Part shown: piece after piece, positions 6,091 through 26,038 of the stretch
Layout of the letters: every line of letters starts with the position of its first letter
Numbering within the stretch: position 1 is the stretch's first letter
Assembly: GCA_903892565.1 (NCBI GenBank)
Contig: CAITIX010000302.1
Coordinates: forward strand, 1-37,377
DNA length: 37,377 nucleotides
From: an uncultured Acidobacteriia bacterium
GTDB lineage: Bacteria > Acidobacteriota > Terriglobia > Bryobacterales > Bryobacteraceae
Direction of reading: 5' to 3'
Notes under the pieces: model-generated
The model's input: only the letters and a program-made list of their open reading frames with translations
Database searches by the model: none
What the model was told of the DNA's origin: nothing
Made by a program: the position numbers and the translations under genes

Positions 6091-7365
6091 ATGCCGGATC
6101 AAACTGCACGGGATCAATACAAGCCGGAGAATTTCCTGTTCTTCACCGAACTTGTCGGCCTCAAGGTCCACGACCTTAAGGGTCGCAAGTTGGGTGTGGT
6201 TCGTGATGCCGCGCTCGTGCCGCTGGTCGATCCTGTCCGCATCGATCGTTTCCTGATTGGCGGCGACGGAACGCTGCTGACGGTTCGCTACGATCAGGTC
6301 AAGTCCATTGGTCTCGATGGGATTCACCTGCGCGACGAGAATCTTACGCCGTACCATTCCGACGAATACATGCTGCGGTTGAAGCGCGATCTGCTGGATC
6401 AACAGATCATCGATGTGCATGGCCGTAAGGTGGTCCGCGTCAACGATGTGACCTTTGAACTGCGCGAGGAAAACGGAGCGCAGATTTTGTGGATCCTGGA
6501 AGTGGATATCGGGATTCGCAGTATTTTCCGGCGTGTGTTGCAGGGCGTGATTCCGGCCACTTGGATCCGGAATTTGCAGCAGGGGATTTCGCCGCATTCA
6601 ATCCGCTGGGAATTTTGCAATATTTTGGAGCCGGATCCACAGCGGCGGTTGCGCCTGAACATTTCGAATAAGCTGCTGGAAGATATGCATCCGGCGGATC
6701 TGGCGGACATCGTCGAGGAACTGGGTCCCGAGGATCGCGAGGCGATCTTCGAAAACATCGACAGCGAAGTGGCGGCCGATGCGCTCACGGAAATCGATCC
6801 GGATATTCAGGCCAGTATTCTGGAGTCGCTCGAGACGGAGAAGGCCGCGGAAATTATCGAAGAAATGTCGCCGGACGAAGCCGCCGACGTCTTGTCTGAA
6901 CTCGAAGAAGAAACCAGCGAAGAGATTCTGGACGAAATGGAAGAAGGCGAGCCCAAGCAGGACGTGGAAGATCTGCTGGAGTTCGACGACGACACGGCAG
7001 GCGGCTTGATGAACACGGAATACTTATCGTTGGGCGAAGAGGCCACGGTGGCCGACGCGCTCGCGGCGCTGAGGGCGAATGAAAGCCTGGTGGAAAGTGT
7101 CAACGTCCTGTTCCTGGTGGACGGCGAAGAACATCTGAAGGCGGCGGTGCCGCTCGCACGATTATTCCTGCACGAAGGCGCGACGCAGCTGAAGACGCTT
7201 TCGGTGGAGCGACTCCTGCATGTGAATGTGGAAGAGAAGCAGGATCGCATTACGGAACTTTTCGACAAGTACAACTTGCTCACGCTGCCGGTGCTGGATG
7301 ACGACGGCAAGCTCGCGGGCGTGGTGACGGCGGACGATATCATTTCCGTCCTGCGGCAGAAATAG
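6091..7365 (+). CDS. PRC-barrel / MgtE-N / CBS protein without a channel
   Basis: The 424-residue protein seems to contain two PRC-barrel-like segments (about 20-85 and 100-155). These are followed by an MgtE N-terminal superhelical domain (about 198-300, HPADLADIVEEL and SPDEAADVL repeats) and a CBS pair (about 305-424, DTAGGLMNTEYLSL and VVTADDIISVLRQ). In MgtE the last two domains gate a Mg2+ channel, but no membrane segments follow here, so this is a soluble cytosolic relative. The start at 6091 is chosen because AGGCGAG lies just upstream; a GTG at 6058 has no such site. The acidic middle (EEETSEEILDEMEEGE) suits divalent-cation binding. Its stop lies in a 17-bp tandem repeat. Confidence 0.82.
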   Translation: MPDQTARDQYKPENFLFFTELVGLKVHDLKGRKLGVVRDAALVPLVDPVRIDRFLIGGDGTLLTVRYDQVKSIGLDGIHLRDENLTPYHSDEYMLRLKRDLLDQQIIDVHGRKVVRVNDVTFELREENGAQILWILEVDIGIRSIFRRVLQGVIPATWIRNLQQGISPHSIRWEFCNILEPDPQRRLRLNISNKLLEDMHPADLADIVEELGPEDREAIFENIDSEVAADALTEIDPDIQASILESLETEKAAEIIEEMSPDEAADVLSELEEETSEEILDEMEEGEPKQDVEDLLEFDDDTAGGLMNTEYLSLGEEATVADALAALRANESLVESVNVLFLVDGEEHLKAAVPLARLFLHEGATQLKTLSVERLLHVNVEEKQDRITELFDKYNLLTLPVLDDDGKLAGVVTADDIISVLRQK

Positions 7366-7407
7366 GGACGCGGCAAAAGTAGTGAGCGAAACTCGTGAGC
7401 GAAATTC
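7353..7407 (+). repeat. two adjoining tandem repeats at a gene junction
   Basis: GCGGCAGAAATAGGGAC (7353-7369) and GCGGCAAAAGTAGTGAG (7370-7386) match at 13 of 17 positions and span the TAG of the MgtE-N gene. GTGAGCGAAACTC (7382-7394) and GTGAGCGAAATTC (7395-7407) match at 12 of 13 positions and span the GTG start of the MFS gene. The two arrays overlap by 5 nt. Confidence 0.75.
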
Positions 7408-8614
7408 CAACGGTTCTCTGTGGCACCGGTCTTTCCTTTTCTTAGTAGGCTCGCGCGCGGCGTCCACGCTGGCGTTTCAGATCCAGGCGGTGGCCGTCGG
7501 CTGGCAGATTTACGCGCTGACGCACAGCACGTTTCAGTTGGGCATGGTGGGCTTGGCGCAGTTCCTGCCGATGGTGCTGCTGAATCTAGTGGTGGGCCAT
7601 GTGGCGGATCACTACAATCGGCGCAACATCGTGGCGACGTGCCAAATCGCGGAATGCGGGTGCGCGGCATTTCTGGCAACGGGCAGTTTCGGCGGATGGT
7701 TGACGGCGCCGATGATGTACGGCGCGATCTTCGTGCTGGGCGCGGCGCGTGCGTTCGAGGGTCCTTCGATGCAGGCCCTGACGCCAGGACTCGTCGAGAA
7801 AAACCAACTGCCACAGGCCATGGCGATGATGTCTTCGTTCTTCCAAACGGCGGCGATTGTGGGTCCGGCGCTCGGCGGATTTCTGTACGCGCTGGGGCCG
7901 ACGGCTTGTTACGCTTCGACCTCCACGTTGTTCCTGATCGCCGGTTTGGCGACATCGTCGATCCGAATGGAATACACCGTGCCGCGGCGTGAGCCTCCGA
8001 CGATGAAGTCTATTTTCCTGGGGATCAACTTTATTCGCAGCCGTCCGGCGGTGTTGGGGGCGATCTCGCTCGACTTGTTCGCGGTGCTGCTCGGTGGCGC
8101 GACGGCGTTGCTGCCGGTGTTCGCGCGCGAGATCCTGCACACGGGTCCGTGGGGATTGGGATTACTGCGCGCTTCGCCGGCGCTGGGAGCGTTGATGATG
8201 TCCGTAACACTGGCGCATCGTCCGCTGCCGGGGCGCGCGGGCAAAGCGATGTTCGGAGCGGTGATGGCGTTCGGCGCGGCGACCGTGGTGTTCGCAGTAT
8301 CGCACTGGATTCCGCTCTCGATGCTGGCGTTGTTCGTGCTGGGCGCGTCCGACGTGGTGAGCGTGGTGATCCGGCAATCGTTGGTGCAGCTGGAAACACC
8401 GGACGAGATGCGAGGGCGCGTGAGCGCGGTGAACTCGCTGTTTATCGGGACGTCGAATCAGTTGGGCGAATTCGAATCGGGCGTGACGGCCGCGTGGTGG
8501 GGAACGGTCCCGGCAACGGTGCTCGGCGGAGTGGGAAGCATCGTGGTGGCGGGGCTGTGGATGTTCTTGTTCCCGGATTTACGGAAGCTCGATAAGTTGC
8601 GGGCGCGGGAGTAG
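7382..8614 (+). CDS. MFS transporter, EntS/MFS_3-like exporter
   Basis: The 410-residue polytopic inner-membrane protein fits the MFS_3 (EntS-like) group of major facilitator exporters. It has about twelve hydrophobic segments, the loop 2-3 signature GHVADHYNRRNI, EGPSMQALTPGLV, and the second-half signature ETPDEMRGRVSAVNSLFIG typical of this branch. The GTG start at 7382 lies within a short tandem repeat and no clear ribosome binding site is seen, so the start is uncertain. It follows the MgtE-N/CBS gene by 16 nt and is probably co-transcribed. The substrate is not identifiable. Confidence 0.85.
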   Translation: MSETRERNSNGSLWHRSFLFLVGSRAASTLAFQIQAVAVGWQIYALTHSTFQLGMVGLAQFLPMVLLNLVVGHVADHYNRRNIVATCQIAECGCAAFLATGSFGGWLTAPMMYGAIFVLGAARAFEGPSMQALTPGLVEKNQLPQAMAMMSSFFQTAAIVGPALGGFLYALGPTACYASTSTLFLIAGLATSSIRMEYTVPRREPPTMKSIFLGINFIRSRPAVLGAISLDLFAVLLGGATALLPVFAREILHTGPWGLGLLRASPALGALMMSVTLAHRPLPGRAGKAMFGAVMAFGAATVVFAVSHWIPLSMLALFVLGASDVVSVVIRQSLVQLETPDEMRGRVSAVNSLFIGTSNQLGEFESGVTAAWWGTVPATVLGGVGSIVVAGLWMFLFPDLRKLDKLRARE

Positions 8615-8672
8615 GCGCATCAGCACGTGGCTTGCCTTGGCCGAAAGATTGCTTTATCTTGAAGGCAGAATC

Positions 8673-8897
8673 ATGGAACTAAATTTCACGCCTGAACAGC
8701 AAGCGCAGTTGGCGCAGATGGCGACGAAAGCCGGCACCGTTCCAGAGCAGCTCGTGACCGACGTTGTTGCTCGTTATCTCGATGAGGAGGCCCGTTTCCT
8801 CGCAGCGGTGGAAAAAGGAATCGCAGCTGCTGAGCGTGGGGAGTTCATCGAAGAAGAAGAGATGGATGCGCGTGTCGAGGCCATGTTTAAGGCCTGA
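8673..8897 (+). CDS. ParD-like antitoxin
   Basis: This 74-residue acidic protein has an N-terminal helical part (MELNFTPEQQAQLAQMATKAG) and a strongly acidic C-terminus (EFIEEEEMDARVEAMF) of the kind that wraps a ParE/RelE toxin. The ATG at 8673 is preferred over a TTG at 8637 because the family starts with a short LxFTPEQ strand. The toxin gene follows after 19 nt. The function as an antitoxin and autorepressor is inferred from context and family resemblance. Confidence 0.75.
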   Translation: MELNFTPEQQAQLAQMATKAGTVPEQLVTDVVARYLDEEARFLAAVEKGIAAAERGEFIEEEEMDARVEAMFKA

Positions 8898-8916
8898 TTT
8901 CCGAGTTTAGGGTTCG

Positions 8917-9192
8917 ATGCGTATTCGCTGGACGGTTCCCGCAGCAGACGATTTAGAGAGTATCAAGAACTACTTGGTGCGGCAGTTTCCCACTTTCGCT
9001 GAACCGACTATCAGGTCCATTTATCAGCGGGTTAGTTTTTTGAAGAACAATCCGTATATTGGCAGACCGGGCCACCGTGTAGGAACACGAGAGTTACCGC
9101 TGAAGCCACTTCCATATGTGGTCGTGTATTCGGTAAGAGCAGAGGACGTTGAGATCCTGCATATTTATCATGGAGCGCAGGATTGGCGATGA
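8917..9192 (+). CDS. RelE/ParE superfamily toxin
   Basis: The 91-residue protein has the ParE/RelE pattern: RIRWTVPAADDLESIKNYL at the N-terminus, the middle FLKNNPYIGRPGHRVGTREL and the end YVVVYSVRAEDVEILHIYHGAQDW. It is full length. ParE members poison gyrase and RelE members cleave mRNA on ribosomes; the sequence alone does not separate them, though the R-E-L-P-L/YVVVY text is nearer ParE. It is paired with the upstream antitoxin gene and probably co-transcribed with it. Confidence 0.85.
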   Translation: MRIRWTVPAADDLESIKNYLVRQFPTFAEPTIRSIYQRVSFLKNNPYIGRPGHRVGTRELPLKPLPYVVVYSVRAEDVEILHIYHGAQDWR

Positions 9193-9209
9193 TCCGCCGG
9201 AGCTGAGCG

Positions 9210-9719
9210 ATGCGAGTCTATGACTTCGTCAACAAGGAAGGACAGGTCTACGCATTCGAGATCAGTTCCATACTTGGTCGATGGAAACCCATTAGAGTCA
9301 TTTCGGCCATTCCCGGTGTCTCGAACATTTGGACACCATCGCTTTCCTGGGTGAGCCCTGACGTGTTCTGCAAGTTTGAATTGGATGGCGTCGCCTTCGA
9401 GATTGACGAGCCATTCGGCGATAACAGCAGATACTGGATCGGAACGGTGCCTACCCGATATGTTCCCCAGCTCGAAAACTATTCGACGGGCATTCCTCCG
9501 GGCGAACCGTCTTCCCTGGTAGAGGCGGGAAATCGTAGCACAATTACCCCTTATTCACGAACTTCTCGAAGCCGCGCTGAGCGTCTTCGGTCATGCGAGC
9601 AAACGCGTTGGTTTGCACGGCGGCTTCGATGGATTTTTCCAGTGACAGGCCGTCGGTTTGGATCAATAGATTTTTCAAGAGCGCGAGCGCGGAGGCGGAT
9701 TTGCTGGCGAAGTCCGTGA
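9210..9719 (+). CDS. small uncharacterised protein with a run-on C-terminus
   Basis: The first ~95 residues read like a genuine protein (MRVYDFVNKEGQVYAFEIS, then DEPFGDNSRYWIGT), and the ATG has GGAG about 9 nt upstream. I recall similar proteins of about 100 residues but no function. From residue 112 the frame lies antisense to the last 176 nt of the enoyl-CoA hydratase gene and becomes arginine-rich, which suggests read-through. A TAG in a shifted frame at 9536-9538 would give a natural length, so an indel or lost stop is likely. It follows the toxin by 17 nt and may be part of that operon. Treat the true end as unknown. Confidence 0.5.
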   Translation: MRVYDFVNKEGQVYAFEISSILGRWKPIRVISAIPGVSNIWTPSLSWVSPDVFCKFELDGVAFEIDEPFGDNSRYWIGTVPTRYVPQLENYSTGIPPGEPSSLVEAGNRSTITPYSRTSRSRAERLRSCEQTRWFARRLRWIFPVTGRRFGSIDFSRARARRRICWRSP

Positions 9720-18639: not shown

Positions 18640-19278
18640 TCAAGCTGCTTTCTTCCGTCCCATCCTTAGATTCCGATTTCGCAATGGCACGTAAACCTCA
18701 CCGGTGACCCACAGCCGATGCAGCAGGATGCCGAGCTTTCGCGCAACGGCCACAACCGCTTTCTTCTTTCCGCGTTTGCCGCCATGTTCCGCCAAGCGCA
18801 GGCCCCATCGCTTCAGGTCGGTCTCCGGTCCTCGACGGCTGAGGATGTAGTGCGCTCCTTGCACCAGCATCGTCCGCAGATAGGGGTCTCCTTCCTTCGT
18901 GATTCGTAACTGCGGTTGGCTCTGACCCGAATCGCTGCGCCTGGGCCGCAGCCCGACGTAACAGCCGATATCGCGACCCTTCTGGAATCTGTCTTTGTCC
19001 TCGACGGTGAGTACGAAGGTCAGAGCGATCAGAAACCCAATAACAGCCACTTGCTGCAGGAGTGCGGTCTCCGGATCATCGTTCCGGGCGAGCGGCTCCA
19101 TCTCGCGATCCCTGTCTTTGATCTTCTCGGTCAGCGATTCCACTTCTTTCAGCAATGGCTCCCACACCCGTTGCACGTCCGGCGGCAGGGACTCGGCTCG
19201 GAGGACTCCCATCTGATCGGCGTCACACGGTGGCAATCGCTTCCCTACTGCCTTGGCAAGCCTTTGCTATTCGTGCAT
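18640..19278 (-). pseudogene. IS110-family transposase fragment
   Basis: About 200 residues match the C-terminal half (Transposase_20) of IS110-family recombinases: ALTFVLTVEDKDRFQKGRD, GCYVGLRPRRSDSGQSQPQL, LRTMLVQGAHYIL and a basic tail. The N-terminal RuvC-like DEDD domain is absent. Tracing the frame upstream gives QRLAKAVGKRLPPC preceded by an in-frame TAG (19267-19269) and MHE, so the coding frame is broken as well as truncated. The usual GVGP hairpin motif reads AVIGF. No element ends or guide-RNA region were identified. It lies just past the glycan cluster. Confidence 0.88.
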
Positions 19279-21415: not shown

Positions 21416-22726
21416 TTACAGCCGGGCGATTTTGTCGGATTTGATGCCCTTGAGCGCGTTGCGCGTATCGACGATCAGCTTGGATTTGTCGACGAGCTGT
21501 GCGTAATTGAAGTTTTTGTGATCGGTGACGATGACGACGCAATCGGCTTCGGCGGCGGCTTGCAGCGGATCGACGGACGACATCTCCGGCACTACGCCAT
21601 CGGCGCGCAGCACGGGAACGTAGGGATCGCTATAGGTCACCTTGGCGTGGCGCTTGTCGAGCAAGTGAATAATATCGAGTGCCGGGGATTCGCGCACGTC
21701 GTCGATATCGCGCTTGTAGGCCACGCCCATGATGTGGATGTGCGAGCCGCGCAGAGGTTTCGCGTGCTCATTGAGCGCGTTCTGAATTTTATCGACGACA
21801 AAGTGAGGCATCGTGCCGTTGATGTAGCCGGCGAGTTCGATGAAGCGCGCTTCAATGCCCGCTTGCTTGGTCTTCCACGATAGATAGAACGGATCGATCG
21901 GAATGCAGTGGCCGCCGAGGCCCGGGCCGGGATAAAACGGCATGAAGCCGAACGGTTTCGTCGCCGCGGCGTCGATCACTTCCCACACGTTGATGTTCAT
22001 GCGATCGCACAGCATGGCGATCTCATTCACCAGGCCGATGTTGATCATACGGAACGTATTTTCGAGCAGCTTCACCATTTCGGCGACGCGCGTGGAGCTC
22101 ACGGGCACGACGATTTCCAAAGCCTGCGAGTAGAACAACGCGCCCATCTTGGTACAGGCGTCCGTGATGCCGCCGACCACCTTGGGGATGTTCTTGGTTT
22201 GATACTTGGCGTTGCCCGGATCCACGCGTTCGGGCGAGAAGCACAAGAAGAAATCTTCGCCGACTTTACACTCGGGAGTCTCGAACATCGGGAGCAGCAA
22301 CTCGTCCGTGGTGCCCGGATAGGTGGTGGATTCGAGGATCACCAGCATGCCGGGATGGAAGTACTTTGCCATGGACTGGCAGGCGTTGACGATGTAGCTC
22401 ATGTCCGGGTCCTTGGTTTTACGCAAGGGCGTGGGGACGCAAATGTCGATGGTGTCGAGGCTTGCGACGATGCTGAAATCGGTGGTGGCCTTGACCTTGC
22501 CGGATTTCACCAGCGGCGCGAGAGCCTCGCTTGAAATGTCCTGAATATAGGACTCGCCGCGGTTGATGGCGTCGACCTTCTTCTCGTCAATATCAATTCC
22601 AATCACCGTGTATCCGGCGTTGGCAAATTCCACGACGAGCGGCAAGCCGACGTAGCCCAAGCCGACCACGCCCACGCGCGCCTGCTTCGACTGGAGCTTC
22701 TTCTCTAAATCCGATAGATGACTCAT
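21416..22726 (-). CDS. UDP-N-acetylglucosamine/mannosamine 6-dehydrogenase
   Basis: The 436-residue cytosolic enzyme oxidises C6 of a UDP-sugar twice to a uronate with NAD+. Visible are the Rossmann motif GLGYVG (22-27), ICVPTPL, the ESTTYPGTT loop, FSPERVDPG, LLENTFRMINIGLVNE and the catalytic Cys in GGHCIP (C274). The PGPGLGGHCIPIDPFYLSW context points to the WbpA/TviB type (UDP-GlcNAc 6-dehydrogenase) rather than UDP-glucose dehydrogenase, but the substrate is not proved. It probably feeds surface polysaccharide synthesis. It is 54 nt upstream of the dapF end and reads in the same direction, after the pfkB-GT39-dapF operon. Confidence 0.9.
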   Translation of the reverse strand: MSHLSDLEKKLQSKQARVGVVGLGYVGLPLVVEFANAGYTVIGIDIDEKKVDAINRGESYIQDISSEALAPLVKSGKVKATTDFSIVASLDTIDICVPTPLRKTKDPDMSYIVNACQSMAKYFHPGMLVILESTTYPGTTDELLLPMFETPECKVGEDFFLCFSPERVDPGNAKYQTKNIPKVVGGITDACTKMGALFYSQALEIVVPVSSTRVAEMVKLLENTFRMINIGLVNEIAMLCDRMNINVWEVIDAAATKPFGFMPFYPGPGLGGHCIPIDPFYLSWKTKQAGIEARFIELAGYINGTMPHFVVDKIQNALNEHAKPLRGSHIHIMGVAYKRDIDDVRESPALDIIHLLDKRHAKVTYSDPYVPVLRADGVVPEMSSVDPLQAAAEADCVVIVTDHKNFNYAQLVDKSKLIVDTRNALKGIKSDKIARL

Positions 22727-22750: not shown

Positions 22751-22790
22751 CCTACTAAAAGTTCCCAGTACAAATTCCCACTACAAATTC
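22751..22790 (-). repeat. three-unit 13-14-bp tandem repeat across the dapF stop
   Basis: Minus-strand units are GAATTTGTAGTGG (22778-22790), GAATTTGTACTGG (22765-22777) and GAACTTTTAGTAGG (22751-22764). The first holds the last codons and the TAG of the dapF-like gene. Confidence 0.8.
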
Positions 22791-23587
22791 GTCCAATAAA
22801 ACTCGCCCCGCGCCACGATTTCGGCGGGTCCCGCCAGCAAAATATTTGAATCTTCCCAACGCAATTTCAAAGGTCCCGCCGGAGTCTCGACCGTCACAGG
22901 GCTTTCCACCAGCCCTCGCGCGAGAGCCGCCGCTGCGGCGCCCGTGGAACCAGTACCAGAACTCATGGTAACGCCCGCACCACGTTCGAAGAAACGGACG
23001 TCCACCGTATGGCGGTCCACAACGCGCACAAACGAAACATTGGTCCGATTTGGAAAGCGCGGGAGGCGTTCCACTTTTGCGCCAAGCGCCGCCCAGTCGA
23101 ACGCGAAGTCATCCACAAAGAAGGCGCACTGCGGATTGCCGACGTTCAAGATGGTGGCATCGCGGCCTTCCACTTCGGCATGCAGCTGTTCGATGTGCGC
23201 TTGTCCCATGTTCATTTCGAAGGAAAACGTATTGCCGTCACGATGCAGCAACTGCAGGTGCTTCACCCCGGCGCCGGTCGCAATCCGAAGGGCAGAGCCG
23301 GTGTGGCCCGCATCGTAGAACTGAGCCGCGGCGCAGCGCGTGCCATTGCCGGAAATCTCACTGCGGCTGCCGTCGGAATTCCACAGCTCGATCGCACCGT
23401 CTGCTGATCCATCGGTAGGATTTGGCCGGGACATCAGGAGCCAGCCGTCGGCGCCAACGCCGGTGTTGCGCTCGCAGATGGCGATGGAGGCGGCGGTCAT
23501 TTCAGTAAGTTCCGGCGGCAGTTCGTCGCGCCAGGTCAGCAGAAAATCGTTACGGGCGCCGTGCGCCTTGGTGAAAGGGATCTTCAT
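22781..23587 (-). CDS. dapF: DapF-like epimerase with both catalytic cysteines replaced by serine
   Basis: The 268-residue protein aligns along its length with diaminopimelate epimerase, which interconverts LL- and meso-diaminopimelate for lysine and peptidoglycan using two cysteines. Substrate-binding landmarks are kept: HGARNDF, LWNSDGS, NVGNP, FPNRTNV and FFERGAG (E201, R202). The first catalytic site reads ISGNGTRC (S79) where the family has CGNG. The second reads GAGVTMSSGTG (S210) where it has GAGETxACGxG, and His of GNPH is Gln. The codons TCC and TCT are clear. It may be a variant epimerase or a related isomerase. The ATG overlaps the GT39 stop by 4 nt. Confidence 0.85.
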   Translation of the reverse strand: MKIPFTKAHGARNDFLLTWRDELPPELTEMTAASIAICERNTGVGADGWLLMSRPNPTDGSADGAIELWNSDGSRSEISGNGTRCAAAQFYDAGHTGSALRIATGAGVKHLQLLHRDGNTFSFEMNMGQAHIEQLHAEVEGRDATILNVGNPQCAFFVDDFAFDWAALGAKVERLPRFPNRTNVSFVRVVDRHTVDVRFFERGAGVTMSSGTGSTGAAAAALARGLVESPVTVETPAGPLKLRWEDSNILLAGPAEIVARGEFYWTNL

Positions 23588-25161
23588 CTCGTTTGGGTTG
23601 GCAATTCGCGGGGCAATCTGCGCTGATAGATCTCGATAACCGGCGCTCCTTTCACGATAACCTGCTTCCTGAGTTGATAGTGCGGGCCAGAGGCGGCGGT
23701 TCTCGCGATCACTTGCGAAATCGTGTCTCCCGAAATGGACAGCGCCCATTCCTCGTGCAAAAACAGTTCGGGACGGGCGATGGCGGAGTCCCAGGACGGG
23801 TGATTCCCCTCGTGCAAGCCTTCTATGAGAGGAATTTCAGCGGCGCGTAACACCCCAGTGAGATCTCCAAAGGCAAAGATGATACCCATGCCGGGTTTGT
23901 AATGATCCGCAAGGTATGCCGCGGCTTGGTGGGTCCACTCGCGGCGTGCGACGGAGTTGACCTCGGATTCTTTCCAACAGGCGAACATCCCGGTGGGATT
24001 TTGCGCAAGACCGACCAGCGTCCCGATGGTCAGCAAAACTCCCGTTGCCATCCGCCAGTGGCGAGGCAGAGAGGCCACCAGCGCAGCTCCGGTGAAGGCA
24101 ACCAAAGGCAATGCCGCGAGAGCATAGCGCGTGTTGTACCAGGAGTGCGGCCACAGCGCGGGGATGTAGATCGGCGTTCCTCCCGAATGCATGCTCAGGA
24201 TGTAGAAAATGGGCGGCAGAGCTAATAAGATGACGGGCCAGAAATATCTTCGGCCTGCGCAAATCAGTGCGCCAAACGCTGCGATCGCGAGCGCGACAGG
24301 ACCGATGGTCAGCTTCATCGCCGCGAAGTAATACTGCATCGCCTGTAGCCAGTTGTGATCTCCGGGATTGATGATTCCTTGAGCGTGTTGGCGCGCGCTG
24401 ATGGCTGCCGCTGAATACGGGCCGTTGAAAAATTCCAAAGGGTTTTGGAAGTAATACTGATTGTGCGCGAGCCATGCGAGAGGTCCCACGGAGGCGAGGA
24501 CCGCGAAGAGAATCGCGTCCCGCTTGCGTGGTCCAAGGGCAAAAAATAAAACGACGAAGGGGATGACGAACCAGCCTTCGTAACGGGTGAGCGATGCGGC
24601 GTTGCAGGCGGCAGCGGCCGCGAACAGCGGCCACAAAGATGGTTCGTCGCGATACCAAAGTGTTGCCCACAGCAGCGCCGCAAGTGCCGCGGCAAACACG
24701 GGCTCTGTCATGGGCGTCGATGACAGATAGAGCATGTTGGGATTGACGGCGAAGAGCGCGGCTGCGGTAAATCCAGCGGCCGGTCCGCAGCATCTTCTCG
24801 CTGCGGCGTAGAGAAACGTGCCGGCCGCGACGAAACACGCCCATGCGGGGATCACGCCTGCCCAGCCGCTCTTCCACGCCGCGTCGACTTGCACGAACGG
24901 AAGCATCAACAGATGCGGCAGAGGGAGCCACACGGTGCCGAACTGCTCGCCATTGGGAGTGCGGGAATCCAGTATGCGGCGCGCGATGTTGAGGTGCGCC
25001 TCGGCGTCGCCGTAATAGAGCGTGTAGCCTTGGCGCGCGCAGAACAATGCAACGGCAGCGCCCACAGCGGCCAGCAATCCGGCGACCGCCGCGAGCGATG
25101 CGAAGGGAGAAGCAGCGAAGTTAGAACGACGTAAACTTTCGGAATTCTTCAAAGCGGGCAT
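23584..25161 (-). CDS. GT39/PMT-like membrane glycosyltransferase
   Basis: The 525-residue GT-C protein has roughly ten hydrophobic segments. The first-loop acidic motif is YYGDAEAHLNIARRILDS, followed by FGTVWLPLPHLL, and there is a periplasmic C-terminal domain. It would take a sugar from a polyprenyl-phosphate donor. ATG 25161 is the first usable start and overlaps the pfkB gene by 41 nt; the alternatives lie downstream within the first helix. It is coupled to the dapF-like gene by a 4-nt overlap. Pairing a sugar kinase, a GT-C enzyme and a DapF-like protein in one operon is odd and has no obvious pathway. Confidence 0.8.
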   Translation of the reverse strand: MPALKNSESLRRSNFAASPFASLAAVAGLLAAVGAAVALFCARQGYTLYYGDAEAHLNIARRILDSRTPNGEQFGTVWLPLPHLLMLPFVQVDAAWKSGWAGVIPAWACFVAAGTFLYAAARRCCGPAAGFTAAALFAVNPNMLYLSSTPMTEPVFAAALAALLWATLWYRDEPSLWPLFAAAAACNAASLTRYEGWFVIPFVVLFFALGPRKRDAILFAVLASVGPLAWLAHNQYYFQNPLEFFNGPYSAAAISARQHAQGIINPGDHNWLQAMQYYFAAMKLTIGPVALAIAAFGALICAGRRYFWPVILLALPPIFYILSMHSGGTPIYIPALWPHSWYNTRYALAALPLVAFTGAALVASLPRHWRMATGVLLTIGTLVGLAQNPTGMFACWKESEVNSVARREWTHQAAAYLADHYKPGMGIIFAFGDLTGVLRAAEIPLIEGLHEGNHPSWDSAIARPELFLHEEWALSISGDTISQVIARTAASGPHYQLRKQVIVKGAPVIEIYQRRLPRELPTQTR

Positions 25162-26038
25162 CGATTTCCGAGCGCTCGAGCGTGCGGAAGCGTTCCACAC
25201 CGAAACGCTCGCAGCAGAAGCTGCCCATGACCGAACCATAAATGACCGCACGGCTCAGCATCCCGCGGCTGATGTGGTCGCCGTCGAGGCTGAAGCCATG
25301 TTCGGCCAAATAACCGATGAAACCGCCGGCGAAGCAATCGCCAGCGCCAGTGGGATCGAACACGTCATCGAGCAGATAGCCGGGAACGATAAAGTACGAA
25401 TCCTTGCGGAACAGCATCGCGCCGAATTCACCGCGCTTGATGACCAGGGTGTGAGGACCCATTTCCATGATTTTGTTGGCGGCCTTGCGCAGGTTCGATT
25501 CGCCGGACAGCATGCGAGCTTCGTGATCGTTGATCAGCAGGAAATCCCAACCGGCGATGGTTTTGAGCAACTCGTCCCGATGATCGTGGATCCAGTAATT
25601 CATGGTATCGCCGCCGGCCAAGCGGGGATTCTTCATTTGCGCGCGCACGTCGCGCTGCAGCGCGGGTTGAATATTCCCCATCATCAGATAGCGCGCCAGG
25701 CGATAGCTTTCGGGGAGCTTCGGCTGGAAATCGGCGAACACGTTGAGCTCGGTGGTGAGCGTTTCGCGATCGTTCATGTCGGGCGTGTACTTGCCCGCCC
25801 AGTAGAAACATTTTCCGGGGACGCGTTCGAGGCCTTCGAGATCGATGCCGTGATCGGTCAGAAGCGCCTCGTCTTCGGGAGCGAAATCGTCACCGACGAC
25901 TGCGACGATCCGCGTCTGCGTGAAATAGCTTGCGGATAAGGCAATATACGTCGCCGCTCCCCCCAGCATCTTATCTACGCGGCCGTGGGGTGTTTCGACG
26001 CCGTCGTAGGCAACAGAACCTACTACTACAAGTGACAT
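25121..26038 (-). CDS. PfkB-family sugar or nucleoside kinase
   Basis: The 305-residue ribokinase-fold protein has the N-terminal GGAATYIALSASYF substrate segment, LLINDHEARMLSGE and LVIKRGEFGAM. The signature DPTGAGDCFAGGFIGYL supplies the catalytic base D234. It phosphorylates a sugar or nucleoside alcohol with ATP; the substrate is not evident. It is first in a minus-strand operon with the GT39 and dapF-like genes. It is divergent from the metallophosphoesterase gene across only 29 nt, so the two promoters must lie close together or inside coding sequence. Confidence 0.88.
   Translation of the reverse strand: MSLVVVGSVAYDGVETPHGRVDKMLGGAATYIALSASYFTQTRIVAVVGDDFAPEDEALLTDHGIDLEGLERVPGKCFYWAGKYTPDMNDRETLTTELNVFADFQPKLPESYRLARYLMMGNIQPALQRDVRAQMKNPRLAGGDTMNYWIHDHRDELLKTIAGWDFLLINDHEARMLSGESNLRKAANKIMEMGPHTLVIKRGEFGAMLFRKDSYFIVPGYLLDDVFDPTGAGDCFAGGFIGYLAEHGFSLDGDHISRGMLSRAVIYGSVMGSFCCERFGVERFRTLERSEIDARFEEFRKFTSF

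Follow-up and report, generated by a model that had tools for sequence, protein, structure and literature searches.

The window, the whole stretch of DNA analysed here, comprises 37,377 nucleotides from an uncultured Acidobacteriia bacterium and encodes a homologue of the diaminopimelate (DAP) epimerase DapF that carries serine at both catalytic positions. DapF is a textbook example of an enzyme that works through a cysteine thiolate/thiol pair, and it recurs as a target for antibacterials. We consider it probable (roughly 0.7) that the window gene is the organism's DAP epimerase, with the two-cysteine acid/base pair replaced by a two-serine pair; we infer catalysis, DAP as the substrate, the serines as both bases and the roles of their partner residues. 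Judged by its sequence, Ser/Ser DapF is a new variant of the enzyme. In many sampled acidobacterial genomes it is apparently the only enzyme for making meso-diaminopimelate, a cell-wall amino acid, and this suggests that DapF can work with serine-based chemistry.

A DapF homologue with two active-site serines

The dapF gene (22781–23587, minus strand, as are all window features below) encodes 268 residues in a frame that is open from its ATG start at 23587 to its TAG stop at 22781. With E. coli K-12 DapF (NC_000913.3) as the alignment reference for residue equivalence, Ser79 (codon TCC, 23351–23353) corresponds to Cys73 and Ser210 (codon TCT, 22958–22960) to Cys217, confirming the two replacements that a first-pass annotation of this DNA had described. 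In DapF, DAP-binding roles belong to N11, N64, N157, N190, E208 and R209 (E. coli numbering). All six are kept in the window protein, as the first-pass annotation had held for the substrate-binding Asn, Glu and Arg landmarks: the substrate-site landmark Asn13 (E. coli Asn11; 23549–23551) and the DAP-binding landmarks Asn70 (Asn64; 23378–23380), Asn151 (Asn157; 23135–23137), Asn183 (Asn190; 23039–23041) and Glu201-Arg202 (Glu208-Arg209; 22982–22987). The second active-site motif reads V-T-M-S-S-G-T-G in the window and E-T-M-S-S-G-T-G in the same-genus homologues L004 and L005.

The protein scores 185.3 bits against TIGR00652, the NCBIfam equivalog for DapF (cut-off 114.65), and both of its halves exceed the cut-off of PF01678. 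An AlphaFold2 model made with a 28-row alignment has a mean pLDDT of 93.2 and a pTM of 0.89 (L060, which has a stop codon in its stretch, was dropped from the fold alignment, and L040, L054, L058 and L062 were also left out). The model has the two-domain DapF fold, and its best Foldseek match is the DapF structure 9mro_A (TM 0.87); DapF structures rank first, with O-ureidoserine racemase among them, followed by PhzF and proline-racemase-family folds. In this predicted structure, Ser79 and Ser210 each directly precede the N terminus of a helix (residues 80–92 and 211–223, respectively). Ser79 and Ser210 stand where the paired catalytic cysteines (C73 and C217) would be, and we classify the protein as a homologue of DapF whose active site is variant, rather than as a DapF of the cysteine-pair kind. 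Nor does it correspond to the Ser/Cys epimerase of the proline racemase family, as both of its sites are Ser, its profile is that of DapF and it has the DAP landmarks. Annotation by family profile alone conceals the changed active site.

The start of dapF overlaps by 4 bases the upstream gene, which encodes a membrane glycosyltransferase-like protein (Pfam PMT_2, GT-C-like; 23584–25251). A gene for a PfkB-family carbohydrate kinase (25121–26038) comes before it, and a nucleotide-sugar dehydrogenase gene (21416–22726; TIGR03026, 436.8 bits, above the cut-off) lies downstream of dapF. Many loci of close relatives hold homologues of each of these genes. In this order (kinase, GT-C-like membrane protein, dapF, dehydrogenase), dapF has no adjoining lysine or peptidoglycan genes, which counts against the DAP-epimerase reading. 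Elsewhere in the window, the ORF at 18640–19236 has the sequence style of an IS110-type transposase, presumably of its C-terminal portion.

Distribution and origins of the Ser/Ser pair

Two DapF subfamilies are distinguished here. Canonical DapF is defined by a GNP motif with Asn151 and by a 197–210 segment that is 14 residues long; the second subfamily, GVP, is defined by mostly Val at 151 and one extra residue (ERGVExET). The window protein matched 279 of 297 genomes of the phylum, as did a Cys/Cys DapF from the phylum used as query against the same genomes (279). Loci for reading were chosen from listed coordinates with the aim of covering at least one per genus, and the sample is not random. 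With the window protein, 214 locus proteins formed an alignment of 215 rows, in which Ser/Ser occurs 136 times, Cys/Cys 75 times, Cys/Ser 4 times and Ser/Cys not at all. These rows take in 30 named close relatives, two repeats among the Cys/Cys rows and two non-acidobacterial proteins (L061 and L064, both Cys/Cys). The first-pass annotation had proposed mapping the two states across Acidobacteriota, and at 136 versus 75 rows the window protein is not one odd gene. A degenerate DNA pattern for the Cys motif was also tried for typing; its reversed control matched many genomes as well, and the genes were read instead.

At the level of genomes, a DapF type could be assigned to 180 of the 297, namely canonical Ser/Ser to 102, GVP Ser/Ser to 4, Cys/Ser to 4 and Cys/Cys to 70; the other 117 comprise 18 without a match to the window protein and the remainder without a read locus. 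Both DapF types were found together in none of the 180 classified genomes, usually with one region read per genome. Most genomes of the phylum sample give one DapF match, and two or three matches may be pieces of one gene. Ser/Ser DapF was found in 43 of the 74 acidobacterial families seen: 39 families have only canonical Ser/Ser and 2 only GVP Ser/Ser, 27 have only Cys/Cys, 4 only Cys/Ser, and 2 have both Ser/Ser and Cys/Cys. The corresponding figures for the 146 genera are 85 with only canonical Ser/Ser, 4 with GVP Ser/Ser, 52 with Cys/Cys, 4 with Cys/Ser and 1 with both.

Genus g64 has Ser/Ser DapF in G072 and G170 (L222 and L202) and Cys/Cys DapF in G216 and G272 (L242 and L265), a mixture suggesting that one DapF type can stand in for the other. 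Two trees place L242 and L265 with the rows from Neomarinimicrobiota and Chlorobiota, and a third places them with Neomarinimicrobiota alone; the Cys/Cys genes of this genus possibly reflect replacement by gene transfer. The Cys/Ser DapFs (L229, L236, L240 and L241, from families f8, f74, f19 and f41, respectively) belong to the GVP subfamily and occupy two places in the tree. As for Ser/Ser outside the phylum, the relatives that a contig scan suited to close relatives picked up there were two, both Cys/Cys, besides a single match of 17 residues, and 15 non-acidobacterial DapFs from plasmid and E. coli records are all Cys/Cys.

The DAP landmarks are nearly invariant in Ser/Ser DapF. Of its 136 rows, all have N70, N183 and E201; R202 is present in 135 and N13 in 134 (the other 2 being gaps); N151 is present in 132, with Val in the remaining 4. 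The glycines and Asn of both active-site motifs are nearly always kept. Canonical Ser/Ser rows use both TCN and AGY serine codons at both sites, with AGY in 13 of the 131 rows with readable codons at site 79 and in 8 of 131 at site 210. Because the landmarks are conserved and both serine codon classes are used, the Ser/Ser site looks like a working site, not one in decay. The two codon classes, together with the 135 other Ser/Ser rows, also dispose of sequencing error at both codons, which the first-pass annotation had allowed for. Directly after the first catalytic position, all 136 Ser/Ser rows have Gly, whereas the 75 Cys/Cys rows vary (Gly 53, Ala 13, Leu 4, Met 3 and Val 2).

A set of columns, L68, E77, S209 and S214 among them, shifts alike between Ser/Ser and Cys/Cys rows in both subfamilies. 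Glu77 (23357–23359) has a frequency of 0.86 in canonical Ser/Ser rows (n = 132) versus 0.21 in the canonical Cys/Cys comparison set (n = 14, of which only 11 rows carry both canonical marks), and of 1.00 in GVP Ser/Ser rows (n = 4) versus 0.15 in GVP Cys/Cys rows (n = 73). For Ser209 (22961–22963) the corresponding values in these same sets are 0.73 (n = 132) versus 0.07 (n = 14), and 1.00 (n = 4) versus 0.32 (n = 73); residue 209 is Ser in 101 and Ala in 35 of all 136 Ser/Ser rows. One DapF of the 14-row set, from Enterococcus raffinosus, was assigned there by source; it has Ile151 and the insertion and clusters with GVP rows. Glu77 and Ser209, enriched in both Ser/Ser groups, are candidate partners of Ser79 and Ser210, respectively. 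With only two probable origins, the parallel shifts near both serines are no more than suggestive of adaptation as opposed to simple loss.

The 136 Ser/Ser rows consist of 132 canonical rows and 4 with Val151 and the insertion (families f3 and f30). The insertion is also found in all four Cys/Ser rows, and every Cys/Cys row that carries both of the canonical marks (the larger alignment has 11) comes from another phylum. Trees were built without the two catalytic columns and without L108, L110 and L111 (the last two being repeats of other rows, whereas L108 could have stayed in), and they separate the four GVP Ser/Ser rows from the canonical ones. Constraining all Ser/Ser rows to one clade cost 49 log-likelihood units with 95 rows (p-AU 0.074) and 26 units with 74 rows (p-AU 0.188); finished searches of the 74 rows under another model gave a cost of 65 units (p-AU 0.049). 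An earlier comparison had given p-AU 0.006, from unfinished searches. A single Ser/Ser origin is disfavoured by these tests, not cleanly rejected (p-AU 0.074, 0.188 and 0.049). The free trees are themselves sub-optimal. That of 95 rows puts the canonical Ser/Ser rows in two places (35 + 5), as does a FastTree of all 220 rows (126 + 6); when the 95 rows were analysed with their 40 canonical Ser/Ser rows constrained together, the result scored 42.6 log units above the free tree (p-AU 0.966). The 74-row free tree, from a set with none of the Ser/Ser rows of families f23/f66, lies 34.5 units below the tree in which the GVP rows were constrained together. Because the insertion and the GVP marks add to the evidence of the trees, we favour two origins: Ser/Ser probably arose twice, with the formal test borderline and the case not proven.

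Routes to meso-diaminopimelate and the setting of dapF

The window genome (G000) is 95.6% complete and yielded one PF01678 protein, the window DapF; a second, Cys/Cys dapF, a possibility raised in the first-pass annotation, was not found in it. Searches for meso-DAP dehydrogenase (Ddh, TIGR01921) gave 0 matches in this genome. LysA (496 bits) and MurE (500 bits) are both present, the latter with the DNPR motif that marks DAP-type MurE. On contig C280, a DapE/ArgE-type M20 gene is clustered with asd, dapB, dapA and dapD, and an argD-type aminotransferase gene lies on the lysA contig. The M20 gene falls below every DapE cut-off shown, and the matches that would cover DapC and DapE are multi-role or sub-threshold ones. 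This gene set fits the succinylase route, which ends in LL-DAP; therefore, meso-DAP for LysA needs an epimerase. No window-genome protein reached the cut-off for the LL-DAP aminotransferase DapL (TIGR03540). The two best DapL candidates fit other aminotransferase models better, with none of those over cut-off; the succinylase cluster can be the source of LL-DAP in place of DapL.

Across the phylum sample, Ddh exceeds its cut-off in 2 of 297 genomes (G085 and G196, family f28), and both of these also have Cys/Cys DapF. LysA exceeds its cut-off in 153 of 297 genomes. Among the 150 of these genomes whose matches were listed are 75 of the 102 canonical Ser/Ser genomes, 18 of the 70 Cys/Cys genomes and none of the 4 GVP Ser/Ser or 4 Cys/Ser genomes. 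In Ser/Ser genomes without LysA among the over-cut-off matches listed (27 of the 102 canonical ones and all 4 GVP ones), peptidoglycan would be the sole reason for a meso-DAP demand. In the GVP Ser/Ser and Cys/Ser genomes, DapF may serve peptidoglycan only, or LysA may be divergent; their zeros cut against a uniform lysine role. The remaining 52 of the 70 Cys/Cys genomes have no LysA over cut-off among the matches listed, and lysine biosynthesis may differ in the Cys/Cys lineages.

The surroundings of dapF in relatives bear on its role. Twelve family-f2 loci were fetched, 7 with useful flanks (L006, L007, L008, L010, L014, L024 and L025) and 5 without. In 7 of the 7, the genes after Ser/Ser dapF are first one for an S66 LD-carboxypeptidase-like protein and next mpl; profiles named the carboxypeptidase of L006 and the start of mpl in L007. 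In L300, which covers more of the L007 genome, dapF (6495–7277) is followed by the LD-carboxypeptidase-like gene (7261–8208, below its equivalog cut-off) and mpl (8221–9645, 467 bits, cut-off 388.7). Both neighbours belong to the recycling of meso-DAP peptides, and the f2 arrangement thereby links Ser/Ser DapF with that metabolism. The GT-C gene is also found upstream of dapF in these f2 relatives, which speaks against the first-pass view that an operon with a kinase and a GT-C enzyme signals a new role. Elsewhere, dapF adjoins a PBP4 gene in L017, and L011 and L029 hold PBP4 homologues near dapF; the distance between dapF and lysA is about 3.6 and 3.8 kb in two genomes of f61. Other families have dapF neighbours of other kinds, for example HtrA, Lon and phosphomannomutase-type genes. 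The M20 genes adjoining dapF in L028 and L292, and that in L296, fall below the DapE cut-offs shown.

Proposed mechanism, alternatives and known systems

In our model, Ser/Ser DapF would convert LL-DAP into meso-DAP, supplying lysine (through LysA) and peptidoglycan (through MurE). The retained Asn/Glu/Arg set would hold DAP as in ordinary DapF, with the α-carboxylate bound between two helix N termini; Ser79 and Ser210, directly before those helices, would face the α-carbon from opposite sides. One serine, as an alkoxide or a hydrogen-bonded hydroxyl, would remove the α-proton, stabilized by the helix N terminus and perhaps also by the local partners Glu77 and Ser209, and the other would donate a proton from the opposite face. 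A precedent for a serine base in a related fold is found in the proline racemase family, where the Ser/Cys hydroxyproline epimerase and the Ser/Thr dehydratase use a serine positioned by an Asn motif (PMC4113996). Losses in engineered enzymes count against a serine-pair epimerase: PddB with Cys substituted shows <0.1% activity, which PMC8225329 says matches reports on a DapF and other racemases, and the same paper puts the pKa gap between hydroxyl and thiol at about six units. HisR C67S and C209S have greatly reduced activity (PMC11602996), and Cys-to-Ser replacement has been employed to hinder catalysis for crystallization (PMC12039745).

Alternatively, the serine pair might make a much slower DAP epimerase, tolerable in slow growers such as these bacteria and perhaps favoured by selection because catalytic thiols are open to oxidation. 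The residual activity of Cys-to-Ser enzymes is small, not zero (PMC8225329), and PMC5296763 reports that H2O2 lowers the activity of the Cys/Cys DapF of C. glutamicum, whose catalytic cysteines can form a disulfide. However, the like changes near both serines in two subfamilies, albeit from only two probable origins, hint at adaptation more than at simple loss, and we regard a slow enzyme, with or without selection by oxidation, as rather unlikely.

It is also unlikely that the protein is a racemase or dehydratase for another amino acid while an unrelated enzyme makes meso-DAP, although a non-homologous epimerase doing so is conceivable. Substrate switches within the DapF fold exist (HisR, PddB and O-ureidoserine racemase), and a first-site Ser occurs in the dehydratase of the related proline racemase family (PMC4113996). 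The switch is disfavoured because the DAP-site landmarks, 6 of 6 in the window protein, are near-invariant in Ser/Ser rows and because the window genome combines the succinylase route with one DapF homologue and no Ddh found; mpl and the LD-carboxypeptidase-like gene adjoining dapF in relatives point the same way. The same evidence, with the spread of Ser/Ser over 43 of 74 families, makes a non-catalytic protein that binds DAP or regulates a partner very unlikely. Loss of both catalytic thiols with retention of the binding residues would suit such a role, and E. coli DapF interacts with RppH (PMC4227774), RppH–DapF structures being among our Foldseek matches. Yet it would leave 106 classified Ser/Ser genomes without any meso-DAP route found, the active-site glycines and Asn are nearly always kept, and the state is fixed as Ser, not drifting. 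Conversion of Ser210 into a dehydroalanine- or MIO-like electrophile with different chemistry is extremely improbable: [S/A]-S-G at 209–211 is similar to the Ala-Ser-Gly from which ammonia-lyases form MIO, but those have a fold other than DapF's, Ser79 would go unexplained and the likeness is confined to the tripeptide.

Thus, among the three explanations offered in the first-pass annotation, serine-based chemistry is the best supported, and the amino-acid switch and the binding-only role are disfavoured. That annotation had also reckoned with a large Ser/Ser set already known as ordinary DapF; the large set exists, an assay of any member was not found, and word searches of open-licence PubMed Central papers returned no report of a natural Ser/Ser DapF. 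The natural set of Ser/Ser, Cys/Ser and Cys/Cys enzymes makes deprotonation of an α-carbon by a weak base directly testable by comparison. If the serine-pair epimerase reading is true, it predicts DAP epimerases that neither thiol reagents nor thiol oxidation would affect.

Known DapF enzymes (TIGR00652; 9mro, 3ejx, 1bwz/1gqz and 4ijz) resemble the window protein in profile, predicted fold, length, DAP-binding landmarks, helix N-terminus architecture and pathway slot; they have Cys/Cys at the two acid/base positions, whereas it has Ser/Ser. The GVP Cys/Cys and Cys/Ser DapFs of other Acidobacteriota are homologous enzymes from the same phylum, adjoin lysA in G274, G196 and G258, and differ from the window protein in having mostly Val for Asn151, a one-residue insertion in ERGVExET and Cys at site 79, except in the four GVP Ser/Ser rows. 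The same Cys-to-Ser replacement is found in engineered DapF C73S and C217S (PDB 2q9h and 2q9j) and HisR C67S/C209S; those changes are single and laboratory-made, with HisR activity strongly reduced, whereas in Acidobacteriota both sites are changed, naturally and in conserved form. Among other racemases, an aspartate/glutamate racemase has Thr replacing one Cys (PMC8142540). Finally, the Ser/Cys 4-hydroxyproline 2-epimerase and the Ser/Thr trans-3-hydroxyproline dehydratase share a related two-domain fold in which, according to PMC4113996, a natural serine takes the α-proton; they differ in having one serine base, with Cys or Thr opposite, and proline-type substrates.
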